Virus record (IMG/VR): IMGVR_UViG_3300030020_000071
Span: 1 to 30,838 of that record
Strand: one strand, 5' to 3'
Length of the DNA: 30,838 nt
From: a virus
Below, piece after piece: positions 149 to 14,963 of the stretch (positions are counted from its first letter, which is position 1; each line of letters starts with the position of its first letter). The translations under genes were made by a program, and so were the position numbers. Under the pieces are notes generated by a model. That model was not told the origin of the DNA. It made no database searches and was given only the letters and a program-made list of their open reading frames with translations.

Positions 149-340
149 ATGAAAAATAAATACAAACTAACAGTATTACCAACTAACTCTCAGGTATATA
201 GGATATACAAACTTGGCCCCCAGGACAACTGGATAGGTGTAGGGTACTACTATCTAAAGAATAAGGCAATATCGGGTAGTTTTGCTATAGGGGATATGAT
301 GGAGATAGTTAATTGTTGTAATGAAGTAAAACTGAATTAA
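149..340 (+). CDS. Small hypothetical phage protein
   Basis: This 63-residue protein is not recognised. It is rich in tyrosine and other aromatic residues (for example VYRIYKLG and VGYYYL), suggesting a small beta-rich domain, and has no signal peptide or metal-binding pattern. It starts two bases after the upstream stop and its own stop abuts the next ATG, so it is almost certainly cotranscribed and translationally coupled with both neighbours. Confidence 0.7.
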   Translation: MKNKYKLTVLPTNSQVYRIYKLGPQDNWIGVGYYYLKNKAISGSFAIGDMMEIVNCCNEVKLN

Positions 341-892
341 ATGAAAAGAACTATAGAGTCAATTAAAGAGAATGAGGTAGTCTGGTGCAAATCCCCCGAA
401 GAGGCAAAAAAGTTTGAAAGGTTACTACATGAATCAGATAAGGCTTGGTGTGATGGTGATAGTTATATAGAATCAAGTAGAAGCACTGAATACTATGGAC
501 ATCTTTGCTATTGGGTAAATGCAGGAGGATATTCTGCTAAAGAATATTATGAAAGTGAAAGTTACATAATCACTCCAGCTATAGAGTTTATAGAAGATCA
601 GCAAACTGCTCCTGTAGAACAAAAAGAGGAGGAGGAAGAAGAAGATATATATGATGCAGTACTTAGTTTTAGGGAAAATCATCCAGAAGAAGTTAAGAAA
701 TTGTTTGATAGTTTAAACCCCCCTGTACAAGTGAAAAGTGTTCCTTATCAACTATGTCCAATGTGTCATGGAGAAAAACAAATAGTTAGTAGTTTAAGAA
801 GGTCACAAGATGGACAAGTACAATCATCAATAACGATAAAGTGTCACATCTGTAAAGGGGAAGGTATTATACCTCAATTTGTAATAGAGTAA
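341..892 (+). CDS. Zinc-finger protein with DnaJ-type CxxCxG motifs
   Basis: The 183-residue product starts directly after the previous stop. Around residues 95-104 there is a run of glutamates (EEEEEEDIYD) acting as an acidic linker. The C-terminal 45 residues carry two CxxCxG units, CPMCHGEK and CHICKGEG, the arrangement of half of a DnaJ-type zinc finger; the four cysteines would bind one zinc ion. Such modules mediate protein or nucleic-acid contacts. The N-terminal 90 residues are not recognised. There is no J domain, so this is not a DnaJ co-chaperone. Role unknown. Confidence 0.75.
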   Translation: MKRTIESIKENEVVWCKSPEEAKKFERLLHESDKAWCDGDSYIESSRSTEYYGHLCYWVNAGGYSAKEYYESESYIITPAIEFIEDQQTAPVEQKEEEEEEDIYDAVLSFRENHPEEVKKLFDSLNPPVQVKSVPYQLCPMCHGEKQIVSSLRRSQDGQVQSSITIKCHICKGEGIIPQFVIE

Positions 893-907
893 CTAAACAA
901 AAATCAA

Positions 908-1141
908 ATGAAAGCATTTATAGTAACTTATGAATTAGCTGACCCCGATACACACAAGTTCGTTTGTCAGATTGATAATGCAAGTATCTTAGTAGAAGAT
1001 AGACCTGATGTTATAAAAGAATTGAGGAGAATGTACCCAATGTTCAAAGTCGATTTGACAACAATAAATTGGGATACTGAAATAAACTCAGCACTTGAAC
1101 ATTTAGGTAAAAGACATAATGAATTTTATAATCCAATGTAA
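908..1141 (+). CDS. Small hypothetical protein
   Basis: A 77-residue protein that opens with a hydrophobic strand (MKAFIVTYEL) followed by alternating strand-like and helix-like segments, with no recognisable motif. It sits 15 bases after the zinc-finger gene and 11 bases before the GHKL-type ATPase gene in the same direction, so it probably belongs to the same transcript. Function unknown. Confidence 0.7.
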   Translation: MKAFIVTYELADPDTHKFVCQIDNASILVEDRPDVIKELRRMYPMFKVDLTTINWDTEINSALEHLGKRHNEFYNPM

Positions 1142-1152
1142 TACAAAAACTC

Positions 1153-2817
1153 ATGAAATATTTAAAAATTACTAATAAAGGAGAACTAGATATAAGGTTG
1201 ATAGCTCTCATGGGAGGAACAACTAAAGCTAATGCAAAATATAAGATAGGTCAATTTGGTACGGGATTGAAATATACCCTGGCATATTTGTTCAGGAATA
1301 ATCTTGATTTTAAGATATTCTCTGGAACTAATGAAGCACAAATAACTACAGAAAAAGAAGATATACAAGGAACAGAGTTTGAGATCATTTGTATAAATGG
1401 ACAGAGGACATCTATAACAATAGGTATGGGTATGGAGTGGAAACCCTGGATGATCATTAGGGAAATTTGGTCAAATAGTTTAGATGAAGGAGATGCACAG
1501 AAGAACATAACAGAAGAAATAGTTGGTGAAGAAGGAATAACATCATTCTACATACAAATAACCCCCGAGATACAGGAAGTGATTAGTAATTGGGAGCAGT
1601 ACTTTATGCCAGAGGAAGAAGTACCAATATTCCAAAATGGAGTATTTAAAGTTTATCCATCATCAGGTAATCTGTGTATCTATAAAAATGGTATACTGAT
1701 ACTAAGAGACCCTGATCAAAAATCAGTGTTTAGTTATGATTACAAAGATGCTGAAATTAATGAACTGCGAGAATTTAAAGATAGTAGGTCACTTGTTGTG
1801 TCATCAGCTATTAAATTGCTAGATTCAATATCCATAAACCACTTTGTAAATAATGTAGGCCCAGATGATTATGAAGGTAGTTCTGCAGTAGATTACAATT
1901 GGTATCAAGATTGGAGTGAGGCATGGAAATCATTTGTGATCAATAGTAGACTTATAACAGACAAGATAAAACAAAGATATAGTAGTTATGGGTATGGCTA
2001 TAATGAAAAAGAATATGCTACTATCCCACAAGTACTATACAATGCTTTATCTAAAGATCTTGGTAATTTAGGAGAAATTGATACAACAGAAGATAAGAAA
2101 GATGGAGGAATTGCATTCTTTCCTATAGAGGGGACAGATGTAGAAAAGAAAGTGAAGATCTGTTTACAGGAGTTATCAGATGTGGGATATATTATACCAA
2201 AGGAAACAAAAATACTATATGGAATATATAGAAGGGAGGATTCTTATATCGTTGTAGAAAATAATAAGATTTTGGTGAATCTTGCTACTAAAGACCTTGA
2301 TAAAAAGGAGATTAAGATTCACTTGATTAGGTCTTACGAACAACTAAAAAAGAGGTTTTCAGGTTCTGAAAATAGTGCTAATTATTTTATCTCAATGTAC
2401 CTTGATCAAATAGTTAAAGATAAGGAAGAATTGATAGATAGTAGCCCTATTGAGCCTATATACTTAGGTTTTGAATTAACTATGCCAAATGTGGGTTCTT
2501 GGAATGGTAGATGGACAGGAGCCGATGATCTACATTATAGTAGCAAGAAAGTAAGTCTGGGTAAGTTAAAAGAACTACTGCAAGATGGGGATGTTGAAAA
2601 CTTCCATTATGATTTTGGTGACGGTTGGGCAGCAAATGTCAAAGTTTATACAACTAATGCCAGGGAAAATGAAGAAAAAACAAAACTATCAAAAGGTTTC
2701 TCGGGTTATGAATGGATGATAGATAGTATCCTAGATATAGGGGAAATAATGACTAATGATAACAGATGGGAATATAAAAAGAATCAGGAAAAAGTAGAAA
2801 GCAAACTTACTCAGTAA
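1153..2817 (+). CDS. GHKL-type ATPase-like protein with permuted motifs
   Basis: This 554-residue protein has two motifs of the GHKL (gyrase, Hsp90, histidine kinase, MutL) ATP-binding fold. A glycine-rich lid motif, IGQFGTGLKY, lies at about residues 32-41, and an N-box-like helix, REIWSNSLDEGD, with the expected Glu, Asn and Asp, lies at about 103-114. In classical GHKL proteins the N box comes first, so the order here is permuted. I recall phage and plasmid proteins of unknown function with this N-terminal pattern. The last 110 residues look like a separate domain (FELTMPNVGSW at about 440, HYDFGDGW at about 485). ATP binding is likely from the motifs; the role is unknown. Nothing in the sequence says whether it remodels proteins, acts on DNA or counters host defence. 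It is the last gene before the structured intergenic region. Confidence 0.65.
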   Translation: MKYLKITNKGELDIRLIALMGGTTKANAKYKIGQFGTGLKYTLAYLFRNNLDFKIFSGTNEAQITTEKEDIQGTEFEIICINGQRTSITIGMGMEWKPWMIIREIWSNSLDEGDAQKNITEEIVGEEGITSFYIQITPEIQEVISNWEQYFMPEEEVPIFQNGVFKVYPSSGNLCIYKNGILILRDPDQKSVFSYDYKDAEINELREFKDSRSLVVSSAIKLLDSISINHFVNNVGPDDYEGSSAVDYNWYQDWSEAWKSFVINSRLITDKIKQRYSSYGYGYNEKEYATIPQVLYNALSKDLGNLGEIDTTEDKKDGGIAFFPIEGTDVEKKVKICLQELSDVGYIIPKETKILYGIYRREDSYIVVENNKILVNLATKDLDKKEIKIHLIRSYEQLKKRFSGSENSANYFISMYLDQIVKDKEELIDSSPIEPIYLGFELTMPNVGSWNGRWTGADDLHYSSKKVSLGKLKELLQDGDVENFHYDFGDGWAANVKVYTTNARENEEKTKLSKGFSGYEWMIDSILDIGEIMTNDNRWEYKKNQEKVESKLTQ

Positions 2818-2823
2818 AAATAG

Positions 2824-2842
2824 TTTCAAAAAGATTTTGAAA
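2824..2842. promoter_or_regulatory. Perfect inverted repeat over the -33 element of the 2836-2865 promoter
   Basis: TTTCAAAA and TTTTGAAA form 8-base arms around a 3-base spacer, directly after the stop at 2817. The right arm contains the TTTG proposed as the -33 element, so this could be an operator. It could instead be a weak AT-only hairpin ending the upstream transcript. A palindrome overlaps the -33 element in the same way at 15340-15359. Confidence 0.4.
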
Positions 2843-2865
2843 TACAAAAGTAATTTGTAATTTTG
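2836..2865 (+). promoter_or_regulatory. Bacteroidota-type promoter for the structured RNA region
   Basis: TTTG at 2836-2839 and TAATTTTG at 2858-2865 match the Bacteroidota -33 (TTTG) and -7 (TAnnTTTG) elements with an 18-base spacer, slightly under the usual 19-21. Transcription would start about five bases after the -7 element, near 2870-2871, just before the first long helix at 2875. This placement suggests that the RNA, not only the genes beyond 3376, is the intended product. Confidence 0.6.
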
Positions 2866-2869
2866 TAAA

Positions 2870-3345
2870 GTCAATGTGAACCGTGGAAAGTTTATTGGCA
2901 AATTGGATAAACTATAAACTAATTCCCCTTTATGGGAATACAGATAAGAGACCCCAGTCAGAACTTCCACGGTTCATAAGGCTGGGGTTTTCTACTGTTA
3001 CTAATCCTCATGATACCTGTAAACGAGTATAACCAGGTAAATTAATAACACAGTAAAACCAGAAAGTCTATAGGCTGCAGTAGATCCTGTAAGATTTAGC
3101 TAACTATAGAAATAAGAATGGATGTTGTGAAATTTCCTGCTCTGTGTGTAACTTCACAACAGGACCTCGTGAGAACTGTAAATGCAGCATCCCCCCGAAG
3201 TCGAGGGAACATAGATTAAGAAGCTATGAGGTTGAGGTTGGTACTGAATTGAAAAGAAGATACTCAGATAACTCTTCTTGAACCTACTGAGAGTACCTCA
3301 AACCCCTTCGGGGTAAAAGGGGAAGGTCTCACGAGGGAAAAAGTT
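2870..3345 (+). ncRNA. Candidate large structured non-coding RNA (about 475 nt)
   Basis: The gap 2818-3375 has no credible ORF but is full of complementary segments. Pairings seen by eye: 2877-2888 with 2965-2976 (12 perfect, extendable to 14); hairpin 2922-2927/2934-2939; 2951-2957 with 2982-2988; 2993-2998/3050-3055 enclosing 3014-3019/3034-3039; 3067-3073/3104-3110 enclosing 3081-3086/3093-3098; 3123-3131 with 3153-3161 (9 perfect); long-range 3165-3174 with 3327-3336 (10 perfect, 152 bases apart) enclosing 3210-3214/3224-3228, 3232-3238/3295-3301, 3254-3260/3273-3279 and an ACCCC-TTC-GGGGT hairpin at 3302-3314. GC content is visibly higher than in flanking genes, and a promoter would start RNA at about 2870. 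Size and phage setting resemble the large ornate RNAs GOLLD and ROOL, but I see no sequence signature of either. The 3' end is uncertain because no strong terminator precedes the ATG at 3376. It may instead be a very long leader. Confidence 0.6.
2948..2995 (+). terminator. Terminator-like hairpin inside the structured region, possible attenuator
   Basis: ACCCCAG at 2951-2957 pairs with CTGGGGT at 2982-2988 and is followed by TTTTCT, the form of an intrinsic terminator with a 24-base loop. The loop contains 2965-2976, the 3' arm of the 12-base-pair helix starting at 2877. The two helices therefore cross: they form a pseudoknot or exclude each other as terminator and antiterminator. Confidence 0.45.
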
Positions 3346-3375
3346 CTTATCAAAATAAGTGTAAGTGTAAAACGT

Positions 3376-3582
3376 ATGGAAAACGAACTAATAGAAGTAG
3401 AAATAACTGTCAGTAAGAAAAACAAATTCAAGTTACTGGTAGATGAGTATACAGCAAGTAATTTACAGGCATGTATAGATAACTGGAGTATGAGAACAAA
3501 TAAGTATACACAGCAGTCATTAGCAGACTATATAAATAGTAAGGATTATGCAGGATGTAAAGCAAAAATAATAAAATCGTAA
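3376..3582 (+). CDS. Small hypothetical protein, first gene after the structured RNA
   Basis: A 68-residue protein with an acidic N-terminus and basic C-terminus (ending KAKIIKS), no recognised motif. The ATG follows the A-rich leader tgtaaaacgt. A hairpin (CTTAT-CAAA-ATAAG, 3346-3359) lies just upstream. It is followed after three bases by the next gene. If the region 2870-3345 is a leader rather than a free RNA, this is the first gene it would control. Confidence 0.65.
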   Translation: MENELIEVEITVSKKNKFKLLVDEYTASNLQACIDNWSMRTNKYTQQSLADYINSKDYAGCKAKIIKS

Positions 3583-3585
3583 GTT

Positions 3586-3822
3586 ATGATAATAACAGAT
3601 GAAATAATTACAAAAGCAGGAGAGTTAGAAGAAACTTTTCACGCACAAATAAATCAGATAATAGAGAAAGGAAGTAGTACTGTTAGTTATGAAAGTATGA
3701 GATCAGCAGTAGTTAATCTCAAATTAGCTGAACTGGAGTTACGTATAGAGAAACTGGAAAATGGTAAAGTAGATAAACTTTCCCCCTCAGAAGCAAGTGA
3801 ACTTTTAAAAGATATTAAATAA
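3586..3822 (+). CDS. Small helical, coiled-coil-like protein
   Basis: The 78 residues are predicted almost wholly helical; the stretch LKLAELELRIEKLENGKVDKL at roughly residues 45-65 has heptad-like leucine and isoleucine spacing typical of a short coiled coil, so a dimer is plausible. No enzymatic motif is visible. Coupled with its upstream neighbour by a three-base gap. Confidence 0.65.
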   Translation: MIITDEIITKAGELEETFHAQINQIIEKGSSTVSYESMRSAVVNLKLAELELRIEKLENGKVDKLSPSEASELLKDIK

Positions 3823-3842
3823 CAATCAAAAAATCAAAAACA

Positions 3843-4130
3843 ATGTTAAAAACACCAAGTACACAGCAATTAGTAGAAGTAGCTAATGAAGGACTCGTAG
3901 CACTTTTAGACCAAAATGTATTAATCTTTTGTTTTAACTATTTCTATTATGGTAAATTAGTAGGAGTAAATGATAGTTGTATAAAACTGCAAAATGTATA
4001 TCAGGTATTTGAAACTGGTGCGTTTAGTGATAGTAAGTACAAAGATGCTCAAAAGTTAGCAGAAGAATGGTATATACAGATATCAGCAATTGAAAGTTTT
4101 GGTAAATCGTTTAAGGTTACTTCTCTTTAA
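3843..4130 (+). CDS. Conserved phage protein of unknown function (GVND / FETGAF type)
   Basis: This 95-residue protein carries the pattern GKLVGVNDSCIKL, then VFETGAFSDSKYKDAQ, then a tail with SAIESFGKS. I recall a widespread phage and prophage family with the same signature (GKL.GVND.C..L, .YETG.F, DAQKL, .ESFG) whose function is not known to me. The central strands could form a small barrel. From memory, relatives often lie beside low-complexity glycine-dipeptide ORFs; here the GGTCAN repeat lies directly downstream. Confidence 0.7.
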   Translation: MLKTPSTQQLVEVANEGLVALLDQNVLIFCFNYFYYGKLVGVNDSCIKLQNVYQVFETGAFSDSKYKDAQKLAEEWYIQISAIESFGKSFKVTSL

Positions 4131-4140
4131 AACTAATTTT

Positions 4141-4356
4141 ATGCAAATAGCAAGTAGGCCACATGCAAATAGATATAGGTCAAGGTCATGGTCAGGGTCA
4201 GGGTCAAGGTCAAGGTCATGGTCATGGTCAAGGTCAGGGTCATGGTCATGGTCATGGTCAAGGTCAGGGTCATGGTCATGGTCAGGGTCAGGGTCAGGGT
4301 CAAGGTCATGGTCATGGTCAGGGTCAGGGTCAAGGTCAGGGTCAAGGTCAGTATAA
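4141..4356 (+). CDS. Possible Arg/Ser/Trp/Gly repeat protein (one reading of the GGTCAN array)
   Basis: From the ATG at 4141, which follows the typical leader aaactaatttt ten bases after the upstream stop, the array is read as TCA plus AGG, TGG or GGG, giving alternating Ser with Arg, Trp or Gly (71 residues, beginning [12 protein letters not shown]). The start context is better than that of the overlapping alternative at 4163. However, every variable base is non-synonymous in this frame, which argues against selection on this product. At most one of the two readings is likely to be expressed. Confidence 0.3.
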
Positions 4357-4369
4357 AAAATTTCTATAA
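4163..4369 (+). CDS. Possible Gly-Gln/Gly-His repeat protein (alternative reading of the GGTCAN array)
   Basis: From the ATG at 4163 the array reads GGT CAA/CAG/CAT, a 68-residue protein MQIDI followed by 29 Gly-Gln or Gly-His dipeptides and YKKFL. A/G differences are synonymous in this frame, and glycine-dipeptide proteins next to relatives of the preceding gene are something I recall from other phages, which favours it. Histidine-rich repeats could bind metal ions. Against it, the GGT codon never varies, pointing to homogenisation by slippage instead of protein-level selection. Confidence 0.4.
4178..4351 (+). repeat. Perfect 29-unit GGTCAN hexanucleotide tandem array
   Basis: Twenty-nine uninterrupted 6-base units, each GGTCA followed by A, G or T and never C, fill 174 bases. 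The unit is open in all three forward frames. A 10-base direct repeat (ATGCAAATAG at 4141 and 4163) precedes it, each copy supplying a potential start codon in a different frame. Expansion by replication slippage is the likely origin. Confidence 0.97.
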
Positions 4370-4402
4370 ACCCTATCACTTATTGATTAAATCGTACACA
4401 AA

Positions 4403-5011
4403 ATGAACTTAATAGATATAAACGAATCGCAAATTAAAGCTTTAAGTAAAGTTTCTCTTAACCTCACACACTTTTGGTTACTACACCTACTCTCGGGGGT
4501 AGATACAGTAGTATATATCCCCCAGATAAGAGAAAGAAAGTTATTAGAAGATAGAGGGTTAATTAGTAAGAAAGGTATCCTACCAGCAGGGGAAGCGTTT
4601 TATAAACAGATATGTGATACTAAGTTAGAAACCCCCGTGAGTAAGAAAGTGAAGGAAGAGGCAATAGATAATGGTTTTAGTGAGTTCTGGAATAGTTATC
4701 CAGCAAGTGCTAACTTCTCATATCGGGGAATGACATTCAAGTCAGAGAGAGCCTTAAGAAGCAATAAGCAAGTATGTGAGATGCTATACAACGCAGCTAT
4801 CTCTAAAGGGGAAGTAACCAAAGAACAGATACTGGCAGCACTTAAATACCAGGTACGGGAAGCAAAAGAAGCAAGTTTTAAAACAGGTACAAATAAGCTA
4901 CAGTTCTTCCCTGGGGTAGAACCCTATTTGAGACAAGAAAAGTATATGGCTTTCATAGAAGTAGCTACAGAACATTCAGATGAACAACCAAGTGATTCTT
5001 GTTGGGCATAG
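4403..5011 (+). CDS. Putative replication initiator or helicase loader
   Basis: The 202-residue protein has an N-terminal segment (about 5-70) with a winged-helix look (ESQIKALSKVSL, then RKLLEDRGLISKKGILPAGE). Its C-terminal part has FSEFWNSYPASANFSYRG at about 93-110 and FFPGVEPYLRQEKYMAF near the end. The pairing FxEFWxxYP with a late (Y/F)P-x-x-(Y/F)L-x-Q-x-(K/R) is seen in replisome organisers and DnaT/DnaD-like helicase loaders of phages. The DnaB-type helicase gene follows less than 900 bases on, consistent with this role. Confident that it is a gene; the function is inferred. Confidence 0.5.
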   Translation: MNLIDINESQIKALSKVSLNLTHFWLLHLLSGVDTVVYIPQIRERKLLEDRGLISKKGILPAGEAFYKQICDTKLETPVSKKVKEEAIDNGFSEFWNSYPASANFSYRGMTFKSERALRSNKQVCEMLYNAAISKGEVTKEQILAALKYQVREAKEASFKTGTNKLQFFPGVEPYLRQEKYMAFIEVATEHSDEQPSDSCWA

Positions 5012-5032
5012 TTAAACCAAAAAAATAACAAA

Positions 5033-5716
5033 ATGGATATAGCAATAATAGCACAGGAGAAAATAAATAAACTTGTGTCAGATGGTTCAATAGACACCAT
5101 GATAGAAACACAGATAAAGAAAACACTGGAATCAACAATAAGTGATGTATTCAGGGAATATAGTGATTTTGGTAAGGATTTGAAAAAGGTAATCAGCGAT
5201 AAGTTAAAAGTTAACCTTGAACAAATTGATATTCCCCTATACAGCAATAAAATAATGCAGGTTATAAAAACTACATTGGTGGCAACTGCATTAGAACCAT
5301 CCATAAAAAGGATACAGGAATCAGTAAATAGTTGTCTTAATCAAATAGAAAAGAAGAACTGGAAATTGTCAGAGATCATACGAAAATATCTAAATGACAA
5401 TTATGGAAATGAAGATGCTACCTATGAAACAACAGAACCTGAATATAGTAGTTTCTGGGTCAATATAGGGAATAAAAAAGCATCATACAGTTATGGTACT
5501 AAAAATGATAAAGATCTACGGTTAATAGTAGACAGCAAGACAAATGTGATCAGGAATGTATGGTATCAAAATAAGCCCCTGAATGGTTTAAAAGTAGATA
5601 GGTTATACAATTTTGAAATGTTCCTAATGGGGTTATGGATAAATGAATGTGTACTGGAAATAGATGAAGATGAATCCGATGAAGCCTGTATAAGAGAAAA
5701 TGAATGTCACTGTTAA
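5033..5716 (+). CDS. Conserved phage protein of unknown function (YSDFGKDLKK type)
   Basis: This 227-residue protein starts with a long helical region (1-110) containing EYSDFGKDLKKVISDKL and LEQIDIPLY, a pattern I recall from phage hypothetical proteins with a SYSDFGK.L.....L segment. The second half is mixed strand and helix, and the C-terminus is acidic then Cys/His containing (DEDESDEACIRENECHC). No catalytic motif. Its position between the putative loader and the helicase suggests a replication-linked role, but that is inference only. Confidence 0.6.
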   Translation: MDIAIIAQEKINKLVSDGSIDTMIETQIKKTLESTISDVFREYSDFGKDLKKVISDKLKVNLEQIDIPLYSNKIMQVIKTTLVATALEPSIKRIQESVNSCLNQIEKKNWKLSEIIRKYLNDNYGNEDATYETTEPEYSSFWVNIGNKKASYSYGTKNDKDLRLIVDSKTNVIRNVWYQNKPLNGLKVDRLYNFEMFLMGLWINECVLEIDEDESDEACIRENECHC

Positions 5717-5728
5717 AAATCAAAAATT

Positions 5729-5878
5729 ATGTACATAGTAATAGAATGTTGGCCTGATGCAGAACATGCAGAAATAGTAAGTGTACCAGAAACAGGTTGG
5801 AACAAAACATTTGATACAAGAGAGGAAGCACAAGAAGAAGTTGATGATTGTCAAAATGGAATAATAATAGAGATATGA
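5729..5878 (+). CDS. Tiny acidic hypothetical protein
   Basis: A 49-residue acidic protein (starts MYIVIECWPDAEHAEIV, ends GIIIEI). The ATG follows the typical leader aatcaaaaatt, and its TGA overlaps the helicase ATG as ATGA, so the two are translationally coupled. The pattern of an N-terminal strand, then TFDTREEAQEEV in a helix, resembles small alpha/beta proteins of phages. Function unknown. Confidence 0.6.
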   Translation: MYIVIECWPDAEHAEIVSVPETGWNKTFDTREEAQEEVDDCQNGIIIEI

Positions 5879-7044
5879 GTTTAAGCTCCGAGTTAGATCA
5901 TCAAATACAAGTAGCAAGGAAAGGTAAATCAGGAGTAATCCCTGTAGCATACAATCGTGTAAAAGATTATATAGACATTGCTAAAAACACACTCTATAGT
6001 ATAGCTGGAGAAACAGGTGTAGGTAAAAGCACCCTTGCTGTTGATATGTTCCTAGTAAATCCGATTATGTGGTATCTGGCTAATAAAAACGACAATATCA
6101 AACTATCGGTTATCTATCTGTCAATGGAGCGAAAGTTGTATATGATGACCAGCCGAATTATCAGCAGATTGATCTATGAGGAACAAGGTATAGAAATTCC
6201 CCCGAAGAAGATATTGGGCCGTAATGGGGGGTATCAATTAACAGATAGTGAATATGCCTTAGTACAAGAGTATTACAAACGAATAGATGAATGGGAAAAG
6301 GACGATGTGTTGATATGTCAGGAAGGTTCAAAGAATAGTACCGGGATAAGTATGTTCCTGGAAGAGTTTGCTAAGAGAAATGGTAAAATAACACTAAAGG
6401 ATAAAGAAGATAAGAGTTATGAGAACATCCTGGCAAAACCAAAAACATACGAACCAACTCACCCAAATCATATAGTAATTATCATCACTGATCATATAGG
6501 TATCTTAACCCCGGAAGACAAGGGTGCAAAAACAAAGAGTACTATAGATGTATTCAGTAGGGTAATGAGGGAAGCAAGGGATGTATATGGGTTTTCCCCG
6601 GTAATAGTGCAACAGATGAATAGAAACCTCTCAGATGTACATAGACATAAAATGGGGGAACTAAAACCTAAGTTGAGCGACATCGCCGATAGTTCAAACA
6701 CTAGTCATGATTCCGATGTAGTCATTATTCTACATGACCCCTTGAGGCATAATGGGGAAGTTAGAGAAGCAGGTTTTGATGTTAAACGATTTAAGGATAA
6801 ATTTCACAGGAATTTTTATAGATCATTGCACATAGTTAAGAACAGTTTTGAGGCTTCTGACGTACCTTTCCCAATGGGCTTTCATCCAATTTACGGTATG
6901 TTAGCCACACTACCTCGAGGGGATAAAATTACGGAAGATATCTACAGAGAAGTATTATCAGGTCAGTACTTTCTTAGTAATGGGGATAGTCAAGAGAACA
7001 TCGAAGAACAAGTTAAAAAACCATTTAAGTTTGGACAAAAATAA
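5875..7044 (+). CDS. dnaB: DnaB-type replicative helicase (RecA-fold domain)
   Basis: A 389-residue RecA-fold ATPase. Walker A GETGVGKST is at 45-53, the DnaB-type motif LSMER at about 82-86, a Walker B strand HIVIIITDHIG near 196-206, and VIVQQMNRNLSD near 245, the equivalent of the QxNR region in DnaB. It should unwind DNA as a hexamer at the phage fork. It is shorter than cellular DnaB (about 450-470) because the N-terminal domain is absent or reduced. I chose ATG 5875, in ATGA overlap with the upstream gene, over an in-frame TTG at 5848. A Sak4-type recombination ATPase is less likely given the SMER and QxNR motifs. Confidence 0.85.
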   Translation: MSLSSELDHQIQVARKGKSGVIPVAYNRVKDYIDIAKNTLYSIAGETGVGKSTLAVDMFLVNPIMWYLANKNDNIKLSVIYLSMERKLYMMTSRIISRLIYEEQGIEIPPKKILGRNGGYQLTDSEYALVQEYYKRIDEWEKDDVLICQEGSKNSTGISMFLEEFAKRNGKITLKDKEDKSYENILAKPKTYEPTHPNHIVIIITDHIGILTPEDKGAKTKSTIDVFSRVMREARDVYGFSPVIVQQMNRNLSDVHRHKMGELKPKLSDIADSSNTSHDSDVVIILHDPLRHNGEVREAGFDVKRFKDKFHRNFYRSLHIVKNSFEASDVPFPMGFHPIYGMLATLPRGDKITEDIYREVLSGQYFLSNGDSQENIEEQVKKPFKFGQK

Positions 7045-7051
7045 ATAAGTT

Positions 7052-7246
7052 ATGATAGAAAATCCTACAGAAAAACAATTAGAATCAGTACTACAAAAAT
7101 TAAAAGATGCTGATCCACAATTCGATTTAAACATTGAATTTGGCAGATTGCTGATGATACATATCAATGATTTTACCCCTGAACAAAGGAATAGATATGA
7201 TGAACTAAAAGTAATTTTAAAACAAAATTATGGAACAACAAAATGA
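7052..7246 (+). CDS. Small hypothetical protein
   Basis: A 64-residue helical, acidic protein beginning MIENPTEKQLESVLQKL. Its leader (aataagttATG) is typical for this genome, and its 3' end overlaps the next gene by 17 bases. It contains DFTPEQRNRYDELK, a pattern common in small phage helical proteins. Function unknown. Confidence 0.65.
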   Translation: MIENPTEKQLESVLQKLKDADPQFDLNIEFGRLLMIHINDFTPEQRNRYDELKVILKQNYGTTK

Positions 7247-7466
7247 TAATGCCCCCGAGACACAGAAAAGTTATGTGCAGGAATTTTTAGAACAAGTTAA
7301 AGATACAGATGGTAATTATCAAAAACTGTTTGCAGAAGATTGTATAGAAAGATATATGACAAGTACTGACTTTCAAGGTTTCTGTAAAGAACTGGAAGCA
7401 CTACAAAATATGAGAGATGCACTAGGTGACTATCTAAAGTATTTAGAAACTAAACATGAACAGTAA
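7230..7466 (+). CDS. Small hypothetical acidic helical protein
   Basis: This 78-residue protein begins MEQQNDNAPETQKSYVQEF and is predicted mainly helical. It overlaps the previous gene by 17 bases and shares one base with the next gene (TAATG). The Pro-Glu at residues 9-10 is encoded within one copy of the recurrent CCCCGAGA octamer (7253-7260). No function recognised. Confidence 0.65.
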   Translation: MEQQNDNAPETQKSYVQEFLEQVKDTDGNYQKLFAEDCIERYMTSTDFQGFCKELEALQNMRDALGDYLKYLETKHEQ

Positions 7467-7894
7467 TGGGATACAGTACACAGTTTAAAGGAGAGTTGCA
7501 ATTTACAAAAGAATTAAAAGCAACAGAGTTAGCTAAGATAAAAAGTTTCTTAGGAGAAGATTGTAGAGATCATCCTGAATGGGGAAGAACCGATCTTACC
7601 TATATCGACCTGGAGTTATTGGATAATTTTTCAGGTCTACAATGGGATGGTGCAGAAAAAACATATGACTTAATAGAAAAAGTAAACCTGATAATACATG
7701 AGATGCAAAAAGACTTTCCCGATTTTGGCCTACAGGGAGAATTGTTAGCTCAGGGGGAAAGTATAAATGATAGGTGGATACTAAACATAGAAAATAATGT
7801 AGCAGTAGAAAGGAGACTAGCGGTGACTGGTAATAAAGTTACATGCCCTCATTGTGGAAAAGAATTCATCTTAGAAGAAAGTAAAAACAACTAA
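7466..7894 (+). CDS. Conserved phage protein with C-terminal CPHC zinc knuckle
   Basis: The 142 residues contain a signature I recall from a widespread phage family: FLGEDCRDHPEW, TYIDLELLDNFSGLQWDGAEKTYD, and GELLAQGESINDRWILNI. The C-terminus has CPHCGKEF at about 126-133; with only one CxxC, zinc would have to be shared in a dimer or completed by other residues. No enzymatic function is known to me. Its constant company with replication genes (helicase upstream, Sak4-like ATPase ten bases downstream) suggests an early role. Confidence 0.7.
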   Translation: MGYSTQFKGELQFTKELKATELAKIKSFLGEDCRDHPEWGRTDLTYIDLELLDNFSGLQWDGAEKTYDLIEKVNLIIHEMQKDFPDFGLQGELLAQGESINDRWILNIENNVAVERRLAVTGNKVTCPHCGKEFILEESKNN

Positions 7895-7903
7895 ATAAAT
7901 TAT

Positions 7904-8692
7904 ATGGAACAACAAGAAAAGAAAAAAGATGAGATCGTATTACCAACAGTTTCCCAAAAAGCAAAAACTGTAAATGCTAAAACAATGTGCATATATGGAA
8001 AGCCTAAAGTGGGTAAGACTACTGCCTTATCACAGTTAAAGAACTGTTTGATAATTGATACAGAAAAAGGTACTGCATTTATTGATGGTATAATAATGTC
8101 CCCTCCAGAAGATGCTGGTCCAGTTACCAGGTTTAATTGGTTAAAGGATGTAGCAAAGAAAATAAAAGAAGCCGGACGACCTTATGATTTTGTAGCAATT
8201 GACACATTATCACAATTGGATTCTGATTCAGAATGGGCAGGAACATTTCGGTTCATGAATAGTATAGCAGGAAAAAACTTCAATAGAGATAGTGCTGGGA
8301 ATAAATTAAAACCGACAGATTCAAGTTATGAAAGTGTACTATCTCTCCCGAATGGTTATGGGTATAGATGGAGTCGCGATGAGATAATGGACCTATATGA
8401 TGAGCTAAAAGACTTGGGTAAAATCTGTACAATCTTTGTATGTCACGTAGCTGATAAGATGGTAGCCAATAAAGGAAATGAGCAGGTTATGGTAAAGGAT
8501 TTAGCACTAACGGGGAAAGTGCGTGATCTGATACCAAGGTTGGTAGATGCTATAGGTAATGTATGGAATGAAGATGGTAAGCTAATGATCTCATTTGTTG
8601 GAGATAATGAGAAGATTGGAGGCGTTCGTGCTAAACATTTACTAGGGTACAATAAAGAATTAATTTGGGACGAGATTTTTATAAAAGAATAA
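7904..8692 (+). CDS. Sak4-like RecA-fold ATPase (AAA_24), recombination protein
   Basis: A 262-residue P-loop ATPase with Walker A GKPKVGKTT at 32-40, an acidic strand LIIDTEKGTAFID after it, and Walker B FVAIDTLSQL at about 94-103. The later segment TIFVCHVADK followed by KDLALTGKVRDLIPRLVDAIGNV is typical of the AAA_24/Sak4 family, single-strand annealing ATPases related to the RecA core. They act with a phage ssDNA-binding protein, and the next gene fits that partner. A terminator closes the two-gene unit at 9681-9717. Confidence 0.8.
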   Translation: MEQQEKKKDEIVLPTVSQKAKTVNAKTMCIYGKPKVGKTTALSQLKNCLIIDTEKGTAFIDGIIMSPPEDAGPVTRFNWLKDVAKKIKEAGRPYDFVAIDTLSQLDSDSEWAGTFRFMNSIAGKNFNRDSAGNKLKPTDSSYESVLSLPNGYGYRWSRDEIMDLYDELKDLGKICTIFVCHVADKMVANKGNEQVMVKDLALTGKVRDLIPRLVDAIGNVWNEDGKLMISFVGDNEKIGGVRAKHLLGYNKELIWDEIFIKE

Positions 8693-8732
8693 TAAATAGA
8701 AACAATTAACTAACAACTAAACAAAAACTAAT

Positions 8733-9662
8733 ATGAAACTAGGAGAAAAGAAAGAGTTTGATAGAAAATTATATACAGGATTTGCTCTTGTCGAGGTTGT
8801 GGCTATAAATCCCACAAGGGAATCCTTAGCAAAAATTAAGGGCTATGAGATCAAACCCCCGGAAGAAGGTAAGAGTGCCCCTACTGAATTTGTATACGAA
8901 GGTATTGCAGATGGTAATGACTTTTTAGATATAGTATTCTATCTAAAGGTACTTAACCATGATGATAAACCAATTATGCCTGTGAGGTTCAGGCTAATAG
9001 ATAAAGATGTAACATCAGAAAAAGATGAGAATGGTGTAAAGACAATTAAGTACCAATGGGTAAACGCTCAGGGTGGAAGTACGTGGGTAGATGAAGAAAA
9101 GAACCTGCTGGAAAAATTTAAAAAAGTACAGGTAAAAGGACAGAACATAGCAGATAGAGTTTATCGTCTTGCTATTCAGGGGGAAGCTAATTTTTATGGG
9201 TTCCTTCAGGCATGGTTGGATAAAGGGGTTGCGTTCTTTGGTGAGGCATCTGTAGATACGAATATCTTGATCGATAAGAAAAAAGCCTTGCGTAACATAG
9301 ACATATACATAAAAAATGAACTTAAACCACTATTGGGGAGTGAACAAGTTGGTAAATTCAACGCATTGGCGATGGTTAATATCTCTGAGAAAGATGGTAA
9401 GATAAACCATTTCCAAAATGTCTATAACAACTTCTGGCCTGAATGGAAGTTTAAGTCAATGGTAACATCTGTTAATACAGGAGACTGGAACATCAATGCT
9501 GATACTATTAAGAGTTATGAGTATCTTACTAAGGCATTGAAAAAGAGTGCTTACTCTTTAGGGTGGATAAAATTGTTTAACCCTGACGAACATCTTTCTG
9601 CAACTAATGAAACATTTAAACCTGCCCCTGGAGAAGAAAAGGAAATTGATGCTGATTACTAA
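8733..9662 (+). CDS. Putative single-stranded DNA-binding protein
   Basis: This 309-residue protein follows the Sak4-like ATPase, a place where phages commonly encode their ssDNA-binding partner. The N-terminal 110 residues look beta-rich (GFALVEVVAINP, DIVFYLKVLNHD, PVRFRLIDKDV), compatible with an OB-like fold, and the protein ends in an acidic tail (GEEKEIDADY) like the protein-interaction tails of SSBs. No family is recognised with certainty. The 40-base leader is longer than most here. The terminator just after the stop suggests end of an operon. Confidence 0.5.
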   Translation: MKLGEKKEFDRKLYTGFALVEVVAINPTRESLAKIKGYEIKPPEEGKSAPTEFVYEGIADGNDFLDIVFYLKVLNHDDKPIMPVRFRLIDKDVTSEKDENGVKTIKYQWVNAQGGSTWVDEEKNLLEKFKKVQVKGQNIADRVYRLAIQGEANFYGFLQAWLDKGVAFFGEASVDTNILIDKKKALRNIDIYIKNELKPLLGSEQVGKFNALAMVNISEKDGKINHFQNVYNNFWPEWKFKSMVTSVNTGDWNINADTIKSYEYLTKALKKSAYSLGWIKLFNPDEHLSATNETFKPAPGEEKEIDADY

Positions 9663-9680
9663 CCCGATAGAGTTCACGAC

Positions 9681-9717
9681 TTAAAGAGGGGAGCAGAAAT
9701 GTTCTCCTCTTAATTTT
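9681..9717 (+). terminator. Rho-independent terminator with GAAA tetraloop
   Basis: Arms 9684-9695 (AAGAGGGGAGCA) and 9700-9711 (TGTTCTCCTCTT) pair over 12 positions with two G-T wobbles and a GAAA tetraloop, followed by TTTTCT at 9714-9719. It lies 20 bases after the putative SSB stop. The wobbles make the + strand RNA the better folded strand. Confidence 0.8.
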
Positions 9718-9741
9718 CTAAAAACTATAAAAACGAGATAA

Positions 9742-10398
9742 ATGAAATTACTATTTAACAAGAACATAGGAGAAGTTTTTTACAAACACCCTGTAACAGA
9801 TGAAGAGGTGAGTATCTTTCCGACAGAAGATATAAATCATGACGCTATAGAAGAAATGCTTAGTGGTTATAATGCAGAGTATTCTCTTAGCAGGGTAAAG
9901 AGTAATATGGAGACAGATACCCGTCTTACAGGGGATGAGATAGACTATATCATAGAACAACTGGAGATGTTTGAAGAGAGTCAGGAAACTGCTGGTAATG
10001 AAGCAGAAACAGGTACTCCCTGGACAGATGAAGACGGTGCAACGTTTGTGCAAAAAGCAAATGCCCCTGTAGGTACTGTAATCGAACCGGAAGATAAGAT
10101 AGATGCACAGATAAAGAAAGGTGAAGAACTGATAGAAGCATTGCCAAAACCAAGGAAAACACGTCAACCAAGAACTACCATATCATCTGTTCCGGGGGCA
10201 AGTAAGAGAACCTTAACTCCACAAGAGTATATGCAGAGTTTGCAGGAGAAAATGGACCTTACTAAACTGTTATCAGAAACACATACCCCCGAGATACCAG
10301 AAGGGTTAACGAAGGATGGTAGAAAACTGATGGTAGAGTTTGCCAGCGATTATAATAAGTTGATAGTAGAGTACCTAGAAAAAATACAAAATCTGTGA
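9742..10398 (+). CDS. Hypothetical protein, acidic with basic linker
   Basis: The 218-residue product is acidic in its first half and has a proline- and arginine-rich linker (LPKPRKTRQPRTT) around 135-147, then a helical C-terminal part (about 158-218). The linker suggests two small domains, with the basic stretch perhaps contacting nucleic acid. It begins right after the terminator, but I see no clear promoter in the 24 bases between them. Function unknown. Confidence 0.7.
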   Translation: MKLLFNKNIGEVFYKHPVTDEEVSIFPTEDINHDAIEEMLSGYNAEYSLSRVKSNMETDTRLTGDEIDYIIEQLEMFEESQETAGNEAETGTPWTDEDGATFVQKANAPVGTVIEPEDKIDAQIKKGEELIEALPKPRKTRQPRTTISSVPGASKRTLTPQEYMQSLQEKMDLTKLLSETHTPEIPEGLTKDGRKLMVEFASDYNKLIVEYLEKIQNL

Positions 10399-10401
10399 GC
10401 T

Positions 10402-10719
10402 ATGGGATATAGATGGAAACCAAATGCAACTCAAAGAAAAGCATTTGCAGAAAAAATGAAAGACCCAGATGAGAAAAAGATTTATGAAGATAGGAAGTGG
10501 GTAAAAACTCATTATAGTAATGATCCAAGAAGTTTCAAACATAAGTCATTTATACCGACTCAATTTCAATATGATAATGCTATGAATTTTCTTAGAGAGA
10601 AATTACTAACTTCTCAACAAGAAGATGCTTGCAATCAAGTAATATCGGGGTTTATTTGTCAGAATAAAATACACCATGACTATATACACATAGTAAATGA
10701 ATTAACAAGAAACAACTAA
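10402..10719 (+). CDS. Small hypothetical protein (YRWKPNATQRKAFAEKM type)
   Basis: A 105-residue basic protein whose N-terminus, MGYRWKPNATQRKAFAEKM, resembles short phage and plasmid proteins I recall with a YRWKP.ATQRKAFAE.M start. The middle is lysine and histidine rich (KTHYSNDPRSFKHKSF). A nucleic-acid contact is possible, but not shown. It follows the preceding stop by three bases. Confidence 0.65.
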   Translation: MGYRWKPNATQRKAFAEKMKDPDEKKIYEDRKWVKTHYSNDPRSFKHKSFIPTQFQYDNAMNFLREKLLTSQQEDACNQVISGFICQNKIHHDYIHIVNELTRNN

Positions 10720-10734
10720 CCAAAAACCAAGGGA

Positions 10735-11007
10735 ATGTTAGAAGAGCAAAAGAATGAACCCCGATATCGACTATGTGACATACTTGGTCTTGCATCGTGT
10801 TTGGCAGATGAGGACTTTAAAAAAGAACTTGCTAAAGAGAAGATACCAGATATAGATATCTATGAGATAGTGCCAAAGATGGTAGAGGGGGAAGGAGAGG
10901 AAGTAATACGATTAGTGAAACAGATAAAACCAAGGTGGGCAACAATTTATTTTAATATACGCGAAGAATATATAAAGCTACTGGAAACGTTTATCAAAAA
11001 GGAGTAG
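10735..11007 (+). CDS. Small acidic helical hypothetical protein
   Basis: This 90-residue protein is helical throughout and acidic, with DILGLASCLADEDFKKELAK near the start and an EGEGEEVIRLVKQIKP segment in the middle. No motif is recognised. It lies 34 bases upstream of the primase gene and may be cotranscribed with it. Confidence 0.65.
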   Translation: MLEEQKNEPRYRLCDILGLASCLADEDFKKELAKEKIPDIDIYEIVPKMVEGEGEEVIRLVKQIKPRWATIYFNIREEYIKLLETFIKKE

Positions 11008-11041
11008 TAAATTTACTCTTCACACACAAAAATCTTTCTGT

Positions 11042-12055
11042 ATGGTGCTCGCAGCAAAAAAGGTAGAAATTACCCGGGACTTCGTATTCTCAAAAATTAG
11101 CTCAAGTGACATATATAGCAGAGAACTTCCGGGAATACAAATAGGACAGGCAGTATGCTCCCCACTACGAAAAGATAGGTCACCGAGCATGATATTAAAG
11201 ATCGGACAGGCAGGTGAGATGAGACATAAAGATATGGCCTATCCAGACGATGAACGGTTCAGTGGAGGGGCAGTAGACTTTGTAATGTCCAGGTATGGGT
11301 TATCATATGGAAAAGCTCTGGAAAAGATATCACAGGACTTTTGCTTACTAGAAGGGGAGAAGGTGTATAGGGAGATAACAGATAAGTATGTAAAGCCTGT
11401 TATGGATATTAAACGTTCATGTTTTATTCAAGTATCAGCGAGGGGTTGGGAAAAACGTGATGTTCAATATTGGGAACAGTTTGGTATTGGTGTAGAACAA
11501 TTAAATAAAGAAAATGTGTACCCCTTGAAGGAAGCATTTATAAATAGAAAGAATGTATTTTCAGAATCAGAATCTAAAAAAGAAATCGCATACATCTATC
11601 GTTACACAAATGGTTTTAAATTGTATTACCCCACTAGAGAAAAATCTGAAAAATGGAAAAATAACATAAAGTCAAATGTTGTCGAAGGATTAGAAAAAGT
11701 AAATGGTCAGGAGAAAGTAATTATAACAAAAAGTAAGAAGGATAAAATTGTGCTCAATAACTGTTTAGAGCCATTTCACGTACTTGTCCTGAGTGTCCAA
11801 AATGAATGTGCAGCAGGAATAACCCCAGAACTTTTAAATCGGCTAAAGGGGAAGCAAATCTATATAGGATTTGATTGCGATGATCCAGGTCGTAAGGCAA
11901 GTTTGAAGATTAATGAAGATCATCCGGAATTTCGACATGTCAATGTACCAACAAGTTTATGGGAAACACAACAGATCAAAGACTGGGCCGATTGGTATAA
12001 AGGTTATGGTAAAGAAGTTCTGTTAGATCATTTCAAAACCAAGAAAATTATATGA
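11042..12055 (+). CDS. DnaG-type primase (TOPRIM), zinc ligands degenerate
   Basis: The 337-residue protein has the layout of short phage DnaG-type primases. The N-terminal part (about 35-100) follows the CHC2 plan, with CSPLRKDRSPSM where CPFHxxKxPSF is usual and SGGAVDFVMSRYGLSYGKALEKI where the GGDAIDFVM helix is usual. Apart from C39 the zinc-binding Cys/His residues are missing, as I recall for several phage relatives. The TOPRIM core follows: VIITKSKKDKIVL near 225-237 and IGFDCDDPGRKAS near 274-286, keeping the DxD acidic pair. It should make primers for the DnaB-type helicase fork. It ends in an ATGA overlap with the next gene. Confidence 0.75.
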   Translation: MVLAAKKVEITRDFVFSKISSSDIYSRELPGIQIGQAVCSPLRKDRSPSMILKIGQAGEMRHKDMAYPDDERFSGGAVDFVMSRYGLSYGKALEKISQDFCLLEGEKVYREITDKYVKPVMDIKRSCFIQVSARGWEKRDVQYWEQFGIGVEQLNKENVYPLKEAFINRKNVFSESESKKEIAYIYRYTNGFKLYYPTREKSEKWKNNIKSNVVEGLEKVNGQEKVIITKSKKDKIVLNNCLEPFHVLVLSVQNECAAGITPELLNRLKGKQIYIGFDCDDPGRKASLKINEDHPEFRHVNVPTSLWETQQIKDWADWYKGYGKEVLLDHFKTKKII

Positions 12056-12228
12056 ATATAAATGACGCAGTAGAAATCTCGTCCAGAGGATATAATAATA
12101 CACTAAATAATGCTCAAATAGTCTTAGTAGATGCTTATATACAATGTGTATTAGAAGAACCAATGTTAGATTATAGAGAAATTATGGAGTTAACAGAATT
12201 GTTTGAACAAATACTAAATAAAATATGA
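12052..12228 (+). CDS. Tiny acidic helical protein after the primase
   Basis: A 58-residue protein (MNINDAVEISSRGYNNT to FEQILNKI), helical and acidic. It starts in ATGA overlap with the primase stop and ends in ATGA overlap with the next gene, strong evidence for a coupled real gene. Function unknown. Confidence 0.65.
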   Translation: MNINDAVEISSRGYNNTLNNAQIVLVDAYIQCVLEEPMLDYREIMELTELFEQILNKI

Positions 12229-12476
12229 GAGAATTATATGGAGATAAAACAATAGAACAATGGGCAGGTCACACCCAAGAAGATGTAGAAGAAACCTATG
12301 ACTACAGAGCAGGTTTTATAAAAGGTTGGACATCTGCACAAGAGGAAGATTACAAAGAAATAGCAAGAATAACACAACTATTAAAAGAGGAACTTCTAAG
12401 TGATAGAGATTGGAGTAAATCACTAAAAGAAGAAACGTGGATAGAGTATTGTCATGCAAATAAAATAAAGATATGA
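12225..12476 (+). CDS. Small hypothetical protein
   Basis: This 83-residue acidic protein contains YDYRAGFIKGWTSAQEED, a pattern (aromatic-x-x-GFxxG...A) common in small Bacteroidota phage proteins of unknown function. Both ends are ATGA overlaps with neighbours. Confidence 0.65.
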   Translation: MRELYGDKTIEQWAGHTQEDVEETYDYRAGFIKGWTSAQEEDYKEIARITQLLKEELLSDRDWSKSLKEETWIEYCHANKIKI

Positions 12477-12697
12477 AGACAATTGATGAAGTAATTAAAC
12501 AACTACACGAAGTAGGAATAGACCAATATGGTTATGAAGTGCTATCTGTGTGGGGGAAAACAATCATTCAGGAATGTGCAGATAATTTTGAGTGTACAAC
12601 TGAAAGTGTTTATGTACCAGGTGCTGAAAACGAGTTACAAGAACATCCTGTATTAGTTCGTGATAGTATTTTACGTGTTAAAGAAATGATCAAATGA
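12473..12697 (+). CDS. Small hypothetical protein
   Basis: A 74-residue protein starting MKTIDEVIKQLHEVGIDQYGYEVL. It has an N-terminal amphipathic helix and no recognised motif. ATGA overlaps at both ends tie it into the small-gene run after the primase. Confidence 0.65.
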   Translation: MKTIDEVIKQLHEVGIDQYGYEVLSVWGKTIIQECADNFECTTESVYVPGAENELQEHPVLVRDSILRVKEMIK

Positions 12698-12951
12698 TAA
12701 CAGCAACAGAAGATAACATAGTTAAGATACTGGATATAGGGAAAAATCAGGTAAGTCCGGAACTTAAAAACCTGCTGGAAGGGCATGAAGCCTGGAAAGA
12801 TACAGATGATGAGTTAAATGAACACATCTACCAGTTTGATGAAACTCTATACACTATACAGTGGGGAGATGAATCGTTTGAAGAAATGAAGGAGATAGCA
12901 ATTTTGTGTAACAAGTTCGAGTGTAATTATTTTAGATTAATAACAGTATAA
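12694..12951 (+). CDS. Small acidic hypothetical protein
   Basis: An 85-residue, strongly acidic protein (GHEAWKDTDDELNEHIYQFDETLY in the middle is split between helix and strand). The charge pattern would be compatible with a DNA mimic, but nothing specific supports that. It starts in ATGA overlap. Confidence 0.6.
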   Translation: MITATEDNIVKILDIGKNQVSPELKNLLEGHEAWKDTDDELNEHIYQFDETLYTIQWGDESFEEMKEIAILCNKFECNYFRLITV

Positions 12952-12954
12952 GTT

Positions 12955-13062
12955 ATGGAATCAGCTAGACAATTTTTCCTAAAAGAGTATCTGCCAACAA
13001 CATCAGATACAGATAGAGAGTTATGGTTAAGAAGCAGTGAAAGTGGCCAGAAGTTCCTATAA
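12955..13062 (+). CDS. Tiny hypothetical ORF
   Basis: Thirty-five codons (MESARQFFLKEYLP to SGQKFL) with the common leader agttATG, three bases after the preceding stop and followed after three bases by the next start. Size limits confidence, but spacing and start context are those of real genes here. It may be the remnant of a longer gene. Confidence 0.45.
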   Translation: MESARQFFLKEYLPTTSDTDRELWLRSSESGQKFL

Positions 13063-13065
13063 ATT

Positions 13066-13270
13066 ATGAAAAAGTATGCTCAAGAGGTTGTTGATGAGTG
13101 CATAGATAGTATTACTTCCTTGGGACGACATAGCTAGTGAAGTAGTAGATATATTACCTGATGACTTTCTCACAGAAATGCCACAATATGCAAAAAGAAT
13201 AGATGATGCTATAGAAAGCAATATCGAAGAGATAGAAAAGAATATAAGGAACGTGTATTACCAAATTTAA
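13066..13270 (+). pseudogene. Small gene interrupted by a +1 frameshift
   Basis: From ATG 13066 the frame reads MKKYAQEVVDECIDSIT and stops at TAG 13137. One base on, the next frame is open through LPWDDIASEVVDILPDDF to TAA at 13268-13270, directly before the DUF932-like gene. The join lies near ACTTCCTTGG (about 13110-13120). Without the shift the gene would make about 67 residues, a normal size here. It is either a broken gene, a sequencing or assembly error, or a programmed +1 shift at the TCC-TTG position. Confidence 0.55.
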
Positions 13271-13274
13271 AGTT

Positions 13275-14399: not shown

Positions 14400-14405
14400 A
14401 AACAA

Positions 14406-14963
14406 ATGGGACGTATAAGTCAAGACGCAGCACATAGTGCATCAGTTAAAATAGTTGCCCCTATACAGAAGAAGATAGAAGAGGTTAATAAAGAGATCAA
14501 GGAGTTTCTTACAGTAGTTTATCTGGAAACTGTTCCCCCTGAGGTGATGAAGTTATGGAGGAAACATAGTGAGTGGATGTATCACTTATCAACAGTTTAT
14601 CCGAAAGGTGTAGGTATAGCCAGTAGTGGTTCACAATCTATAGAAAGTTCTCCTAATAATAGTGGAGGTTATTCAAAAGATTTACACTTATCAAAAGAAC
14701 AAGCCGCTATTTATGTAAAGCTTATAGACAAAAGAGATGAGCTTAAGGAAAAGTATAAAAATACCCAAAAAGAGATAGAAGTAGCTATCCTATCCCTGGG
14801 TACTCATAAAAAAGTAGCAGACCAGTTTCCTGAGGTAGCTGGTTTTTTCATAGAGGGAGTTAAGGAAAATACACAACTGATCGTACAACTTGCCCCTGTA
14901 CGTGAAAAGGTAAAGTGCTTAGTGAGTGAAGATCAGGAAAAGAAGTGCATAGATAAGTTATAA
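14406..14963 (+). CDS. Hypothetical helical phage protein
   Basis: The 185-residue protein begins MGRISQDAAHSASVKIVAPIQKKIEEVNKEIKEF, a basic start then long amphipathic helix, with a Ser/Asn/Gly-rich loop (about 75-93) and a second helical region of coiled-coil character (about 105-130). The MxRI opening and PPEVMKLWRKH segment faintly recall the Nmad5 nucleotide-modification-associated proteins, but I cannot confirm this. It is the last gene before the terminator at 14987. Confidence 0.6.
   Translation: MGRISQDAAHSASVKIVAPIQKKIEEVNKEIKEFLTVVYLETVPPEVMKLWRKHSEWMYHLSTVYPKGVGIASSGSQSIESSPNNSGGYSKDLHLSKEQAAIYVKLIDKRDELKEKYKNTQKEIEVAILSLGTHKKVADQFPEVAGFFIEGVKENTQLIVQLAPVREKVKCLVSEDQEKKCIDKL

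Follow-up and report, generated by a model that had tools for sequence, protein, structure and literature searches.

The question raised by this locus is what is encoded in a stretch of 558 bases (2818–3375) that holds no gene, between the open reading frames (ORFs) 1153–2817 and 3376–3582 of a virus fragment of 30.8 kb (IMG/VR record IMGVR_UViG_3300030020_000071; 30,838 nt, analysed in full and hereafter called the window). A reading of the DNA letters alone, whose 558-base gene-free gap is present as described, had proposed that it encodes a new, large and structured RNA behind a Bacteroidota-type promoter of its own. The genes of the window form a replication cluster (DNA polymerase, DnaB, primase), and those downstream of the gap (3376–14963, plus strand) are co-directional, with an ORF of 68 aa in first position and an initiation-like protein, DnaB, a Sak4-like protein and a primase among them. 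The portal proteins of related contigs share 21–29% identity with those of Crassvirales and of the Cellulophaga phages phi17:2 and phi4:1, which indicates that the phages studied here are distant relatives of these groups. Judging from this kinship and from the promoter type, the host is probably a member of the Bacteroidota; a scan of genome contigs for the host, by helicase alignment, gave no relatives.

The ORF upstream of the gap (1153–2817 in the window, 3157–4434 in the sister phage L006 and 875–1678 in L002) encodes a protein with a GHKL-like N-terminus, assigned to phrog_8203. Its C-terminus is swapped among relatives, being PRiA4-ORF3-like, an N6/N4 methylase or of no assigned type.

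Search for homologous sequences

Three sister contigs (in the range L004–L013) were near-identical to the window downstream of about position 2994, but differed from it in the first 125 nt of the RNA and in the upstream genes, which puts the junction within the RNA gene. By following relatives of the helicase gene, we reached contigs in which a TAnnTTTG box precedes a long gap. Two of them, L051 and L053, have the elements in the same order as the window: promoter, 5′ strand of helix P1, hairpin, 5′ strand of helix P2, 3′ strand of P1, 3′ strand of P2 and TTTTCT. When 232 kb were searched with a covariance model built from L051 and L053 alone, just two further sequences matched significantly, the window (28.8 bits, E = 2e-4) and its sister (34.3 bits, E = 9e-6). 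A four-sequence covariance model identified a fifth homolog, G007 3764–3898 on the minus strand (the same as L105 1501–1635, minus strand), with 70.1 bits and E = 2e-13. On this strand, G007/L105 (contig IMGVR_UViG_3300012667_000413) aligned with the window RNA over about 490 nt, nearly to the end of the RNA, with 65% identity; the E-value of the L105 alignment with the sister L006 was 9e-43. G007, found by covariance model R2, is also the homolog of the 3′ domain. A model covering the central part of the 3′ domain matched the window lineage and G007 only, and not L051/L053; thus, a short form exists, and in this second phage lineage the RNA is reduced to the 125 nt at its 5′ end. The comparison is made on five distinct sequences for the 5′ domain and effectively two for the 3′ domain, all from metagenomic contigs.

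No significant match to the RNA was obtained by BLAST in phage and plasmid records. Scans of IMG/VR for exact patterns gave sister contigs and chance matches in coding sequence only, a pattern scan of the genome collection gave no match, and none of 22 phage records (most of them crAss-like) searched with the models gave a convincing one. MT835539 was discarded as a homolog, since its match is coding.

Promoter

The promoter is found at 2836–2865 on the plus strand, as TTTG (2836–2839), a spacer of 18 nt and TAATTTTG (2858–2865), and transcription is expected to start near 2872. When the plus strand of the window was scanned with the pattern TTTG-N17-23-TANNTTTG, the site TTTG-N18-TANNTTTG at 2836/2858 was one of two in 30.8 kb, with no further one between it and 15342. 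The sister phage L006, whose flanks differ from those of the window, has TTTG-N19-TAATTTTG, and the −7 box, TAnnTTTG, is kept in 5/5 homologous sequences with the same spacing to the first helix (9–10 nt upstream of P1), so that the Bacteroidota-type promoter read from the sequence is supported. The RNA is preceded by its own promoter in three lineages.

The only other plus-strand site, at 15342, and a terminator-like hairpin at 14985–15018 may mark a second operon boundary. For the 15342 site, the −7 box nearly coincides with the ATG at 15378, which may point to a leaderless transcript or to a later start.

Inverted repeats and folding energy

Perfect inverted repeats of at least 7 bp number 20 in the gap, while dinucleotide shuffles have 10.0 on average and none of them reached 20 (0/100); those of at least 10 bp number 2, against 0.17 in the shuffles. 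The folding energy was moderately lower than that of shuffled sequences, with z = −2.7 for 2836–3345 and z = −3.4 for 2868–3345 on the plus strand; because the minus strand has z = −4.5, energy does not tell the strand. In a fold scan of the whole window, the 170-nt tile 2891–3060 (plus strand) ranked 4 out of 362. Taken by itself, the folding energy is moderately unusual and constitutes weak evidence, the comparative evidence being far stronger.

The 5′ domain

All the elements of the RNA are given here on the plus strand. The helix of 12 bp that had been pointed out at 2877–2888/2965–2976 lies exactly there and covaries. This helix, P1, reaches 14 bp when G·U pairs are counted (2875–2888 with 2965–2978), and its 3′ strand is inside the loop of P2. 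Among five distinct sequences all 58 cells are standard pairs, with two-sided changes in 8/12 pairs, and the covariation score is 0.75, compared with 0.26 in shuffles, none of which reached the observed value (0/500), and with at most 0.13 in slid controls. In the sisters, P1 is rebuilt from the GAACCGTGGAA/TTCCACGGTTC of the window to GGACCCTTGGAA/TTCCAAGGGTCC. Helix P2 (2952–2959, CCCCAGTC, with 2980–2987, GGCTGGGG) crosses P1, forming a pseudoknot; it has 8 pairs common to the five sequences, which covary, with a bulge in L051, and it becomes CCTCAATC/GATTGGGG in the sisters. The P2 loop is 16–22 nt long, and TTTTCT stands directly 3′ of P2 in 5/5 sequences. Folds predicted with P1 forced and with P2 forced are within 3–4.4 kcal/mol of each other and, when folding is predicted for prefixes of increasing length, P1 is the first to form and is replaced by P2 in L053.

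Hairpin Pb (2922–2939, ATTCCC/GGGAAT) is located within the P1 loop, and L051 and L053 have a hairpin of different sequence at this position. In L053 (1228–1355) the hairpin between the P1 strands repeats the 5′ strand of P1 (GAGGACTGG vs. GAGGACCGG) and could compete for the 3′ strand of P1. A stem P0 (2870–2874/2895–2899), perhaps partly upstream of the transcription start, was left out of the claimed structure.

The 3′ domain and the overall fold

The structured RNA extends over about 475–480 nt (2870–3345), with an approximate 3′ boundary. When 12 helices were compared between the window and G007, 75/76 pairs were standard in both, with 24 compensatory double changes, whereas a slid control, in which the partner was moved by 1–3 bases, gave at most 25 standard pairs and at most 2 double changes. 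The 12 helices were hand-picked by eye, which biases the slid control in their favour; two-sided changes that preserve pairing are not creatable by the choice of helices. RNAalifold, run independently, gave 18 pairs with two-sided changes and added the helix 3051–3060/3236–3246.

Starting from the 5′ side, hairpin B (3015–3038, ACCTG/CAGGT) has a largely conserved loop, TAAACGAGTATAAC, with two two-sided changes and one G·U change relative to G007. The added long-range helix, LR, pairs 3051–3060 (CAGTA..AACC) with 3236–3246 (GGTT..TACTG), shows one two-sided change and crosses helix E, giving a second pseudoknot. Stem C (3067–3073/3104–3110) and its inner stem C3 (3081–3086/3093–3098) show four and three two-sided changes, respectively, and one broken pair relative to G007. 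The sequence-only reading had also placed a 9-bp helix at 3123–3131/3153–3161, whose complementarity is present in the window, but only 4/9 of whose pairs are found in G007; it is replaced here by hairpin D (3136–3139/3160–3163, spanning 3136–3163), with an invariant CCTG/CAGG and all 4 pairs in G007. By contrast, its 10-bp helix, 3165–3174/3327–3336, was located exactly and covaries, becoming CTGACAAGA/TCTTGTCAG in G007; helix E, derived from it (3166–3174 with 3327–3335), keeps 9/9 pairs in G007, with four two-sided changes. Hairpins F (3190–3193/3205–3208) and G (3210–3214/3224–3228) have one and two two-sided changes, respectively, and hairpin H (3254–3279, pairing 3254–3260/3273–3279) has two. 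Since two sets of helices cross (P1/P2 and LR/E), the fold contains pseudoknots.

The wobble pairs of P1 and P2, as well as the one-sided changes between the window and G007, are G·U on the plus strand and A·C on the minus strand. Because the promoter is on the plus strand and these G·U pairs would be A·C on the other, the RNA is assigned to the plus strand. The compensatory changes found in the homologous phage gaps run across both the 5′ and the 3′ domain, over hundreds of nucleotides, as expected of a large structured phage RNA. They bear out, with the conserved promoter and the absence of an Rfam family match, the new large structured RNA that had been proposed, and it appears almost certain from the comparison that the gap encodes an RNA whose fold is conserved by compensatory changes in several phages.

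Position at the head of operons

The first proteins downstream of the RNA in the three lineages have no detectable similarity to one another. The genes farther downstream in G007 correspond to those of the 16.8–18.2 kb operon of the window, not of 3376–5000, and in L051/L053 the RNA is at the head of a DNA polymerase operon. No T-tract or terminator was found 3′ of helix E in the two full-length copies (window and G007), in which the next ATG is at most about 60 nt past this helix. Since no terminator follows the last helix, the downstream operon may have this RNA as its 5′ leader, in which case it would not be a discrete RNA of 0.4–0.5 kb; as the first genes are, in addition, not homologous, such a leader would serve operons in general and would not be a switch tied to a particular gene. 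In fact, the unrelated first genes, the missing T-tract and the near ATG argue against a gene-specific riboswitch or translational operator, and the same placement argues for a general leader or a processed non-coding RNA (ncRNA). In both the window and G007 the RNA stands, according to the promoter, at the start of the transcript with no terminator before the genes, as an antitermination leader should.

Comparison with known RNA families

Rfam 15 gave no match at the gathering threshold in the whole window and, at permissive thresholds, only far sub-threshold matches in the homologs G007, L051 and L053. The covariance models of GOLLD and ROOL found no match with E up to 10 in the gap and G007, and up to 5 in L051 and L053, in agreement with the first reading, which saw no recognisable sequence of either. 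The likeness to these RNAs that it had put forward holds for the size, the pseudoknots and the phage setting, and fails for the covariance models. GOLLD and ROOL form RNA-only multimers of function not known and are often near tRNA islands, and the solved ROOL has 659 nt (PMC12286853). GOLLD is likewise large and phage-encoded, with many helices and pseudoknots, but it has 800 nt or more compared with about 480 here, and no tRNA was found by ARAGORN in the 30.8 kb of the window. ROOL, whose multimer is a nanocage, is likewise phage-encoded, large and pseudoknotted, but longer (659 nt, PMC12286853, vs. about 480). Unlike both, the window RNA heads an operon behind its own promoter, and it is not matched by either covariance model.

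Several other identities were rejected. Freshwater-1 (RF02979) gave a sub-threshold match at 3126–3213 through CCUGCUCU..CAACAGG (18.4 bits, E = 0.2; gathering threshold 72), which is absent in G007 at E up to 10 and was considered a chance match. A tmRNA or tRNA was discarded on the ARAGORN result, and a solitary repeat of the Cas13b type at 3124–3160 because its hairpin is not kept in G007. An HDV-like ribozyme and a group I intron do not fit by the order of the helices. By Rfam, this is a previously undescribed RNA family; an unnamed earlier prediction may be contained in the motif list of a survey of structured RNAs in human microbiomes (PMC8040213).

Two kinds of leader are closer in placement to the window RNA. 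The HK022 put and Bacillus EAR antitermination leaders, of about 70 and 120 nt, respectively, are structured RNAs behind a promoter, which head long operons and for which the first gene is irrelevant. Through such leaders RNA polymerase comes to ignore terminators. The window RNA shares the three features of placement, but it is several times longer, pseudoknotted and without a sequence or Rfam match. The phage P4 CI RNA and the c4 antisense RNAs are self-complementary segments of the leader of a replication operon, one of which is in a hairpin loop. The window RNA also has self-complementary leader segments with one in a hairpin loop; however, its 3′ half is itself a conserved fold. Control of the P4 type works through a processed short RNA that causes early termination within the leader, and P2 with TTTTCT is terminator-like only.

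Possible role of the RNA

The reading that we prefer, with a probability of about 0.45, is that of a new family of large pseudoknotted phage RNAs, which would act in cis as the leader of a long early or replication operon and make up its first 480 nt. From its own promoter, the RNA would be transcribed as the beginning of this operon and would work in cis whichever gene comes after, most likely by affecting RNA polymerase during transcription or by making the long transcript more or less stable, in a mode like that of the put and EAR leaders. Its 5′ end would be held in P1, and the P1/P2 pseudoknot would lie just past the promoter, where such an element first emerges. We observe a plus-strand fold, located immediately behind a promoter, whose pairing several phages conserve by compensatory changes, and from this placement and conservation we infer the action in cis; the mechanism is suggested tentatively, as a leader that is perhaps antiterminating, which we favour over a free ncRNA. 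Some observations count against a leader: its size, 475 nt, is far above that of put and EAR, the P2 helix with TTTTC looks terminator-like and transcription could end at about 2993, the second lineage (L051/L053) has no 3′ domain, the minus strand folds no less well by energy, and the 3′ end of the RNA could arise by processing.

In a less probable explanation, the RNA would be a free-standing ncRNA similar to GOLLD and ROOL, processed out and acting in trans, possibly as an oligomer held by the complementary P1 strands. Its size, several crossing helices, the phage setting and the lack of a fixed downstream gene are consistent with this, as is the formation of RNA-only multimers by GOLLD and ROOL (PMC12286853), and the location of the P1 strands, one at the free 5′ end and the other within the loop of P2, would make pairing between molecules possible. 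However, the 3′ end has no terminator or obvious processing site, the window has no tRNA genes, near which GOLLD and ROOL often lie (PMC12286853), and pairing within one molecule fully accounts for the covariation. Rather improbable, in our opinion, is a leader for replication control of the P4 CI-RNA/pT181 type, in which P2 with its U-tract would be a terminator, P1 would compete with it or be sensitive to an antisense RNA, and a short RNA ending near 2993 would feed back on the replication operon. The TTTTCT present after P2 in all five sequences, the closeness in energy of the P1- and P2-forced folds, the predicted displacement of P1 by P2 in L053, the L053 hairpin that repeats the P1 5′ strand, and the fast change of the P1 sequence with its pairing kept would agree with such a switch, but P1 and P2 have no bases in common and need not compete, a loop of 16–22 nt is long for a terminator, and in the window and G007 the 3′ domain past this putative terminator is conserved, which would be pointless if transcription ended there. 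Finally, inverted repeats form hairpins in DNA too, and the element sits within a replication gene cluster; nevertheless, it is very improbable that it acts as DNA, for example as a replication origin with cruciforms, given the G·U pairs on the plus strand only, the conserved promoter immediately upstream, the conserved loops and the absence of a GC-skew switch from the window.

Considering the cis-acting leader and the free ncRNA together, the RNA may either reprogram RNA polymerase at the head of operons or assemble into multimers through the P1 strands, an alternative to which, as a whole, we give somewhat less than even odds. If true, such a class would belong to distant relatives of crAssphage. 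Few large structured RNAs combine strong covariation with absence from Rfam, and the phage examples, GOLLD and ROOL, lack an assigned function. The RNA described here has a defined promoter and a defined position at the head of a replication operon. It occurs naturally both in a long form and in a short one limited to the 5′ domain, and its natural compensatory variants are directly usable in pairing tests; its function should therefore be easier to test than that of GOLLD or ROOL.

Other features of the window and of a related contig

In the gap 12952–13274 an ORF is apparently broken by a frameshift, which is the same in a sister contig. The DarB-like antirestriction homology is divided over two ORFs, 21829–23325 and 24520–28404. 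In a related contig of 94.8 kb, G014 (L089), two giant ORFs of 2996 and 2140 aa occupy 215–15632, and the first 1262 aa of the larger one have no PHROG match. In the window, the 5′ arm of a terminator-like hairpin, GGAAAGCCTCTGT (28458–28470), could also pair over 13 nt with the beginning of the ORF that follows, ACAAAGGCTTTCC (28569–28581), and a strand-exchange switch at 28458–28581 is possible.
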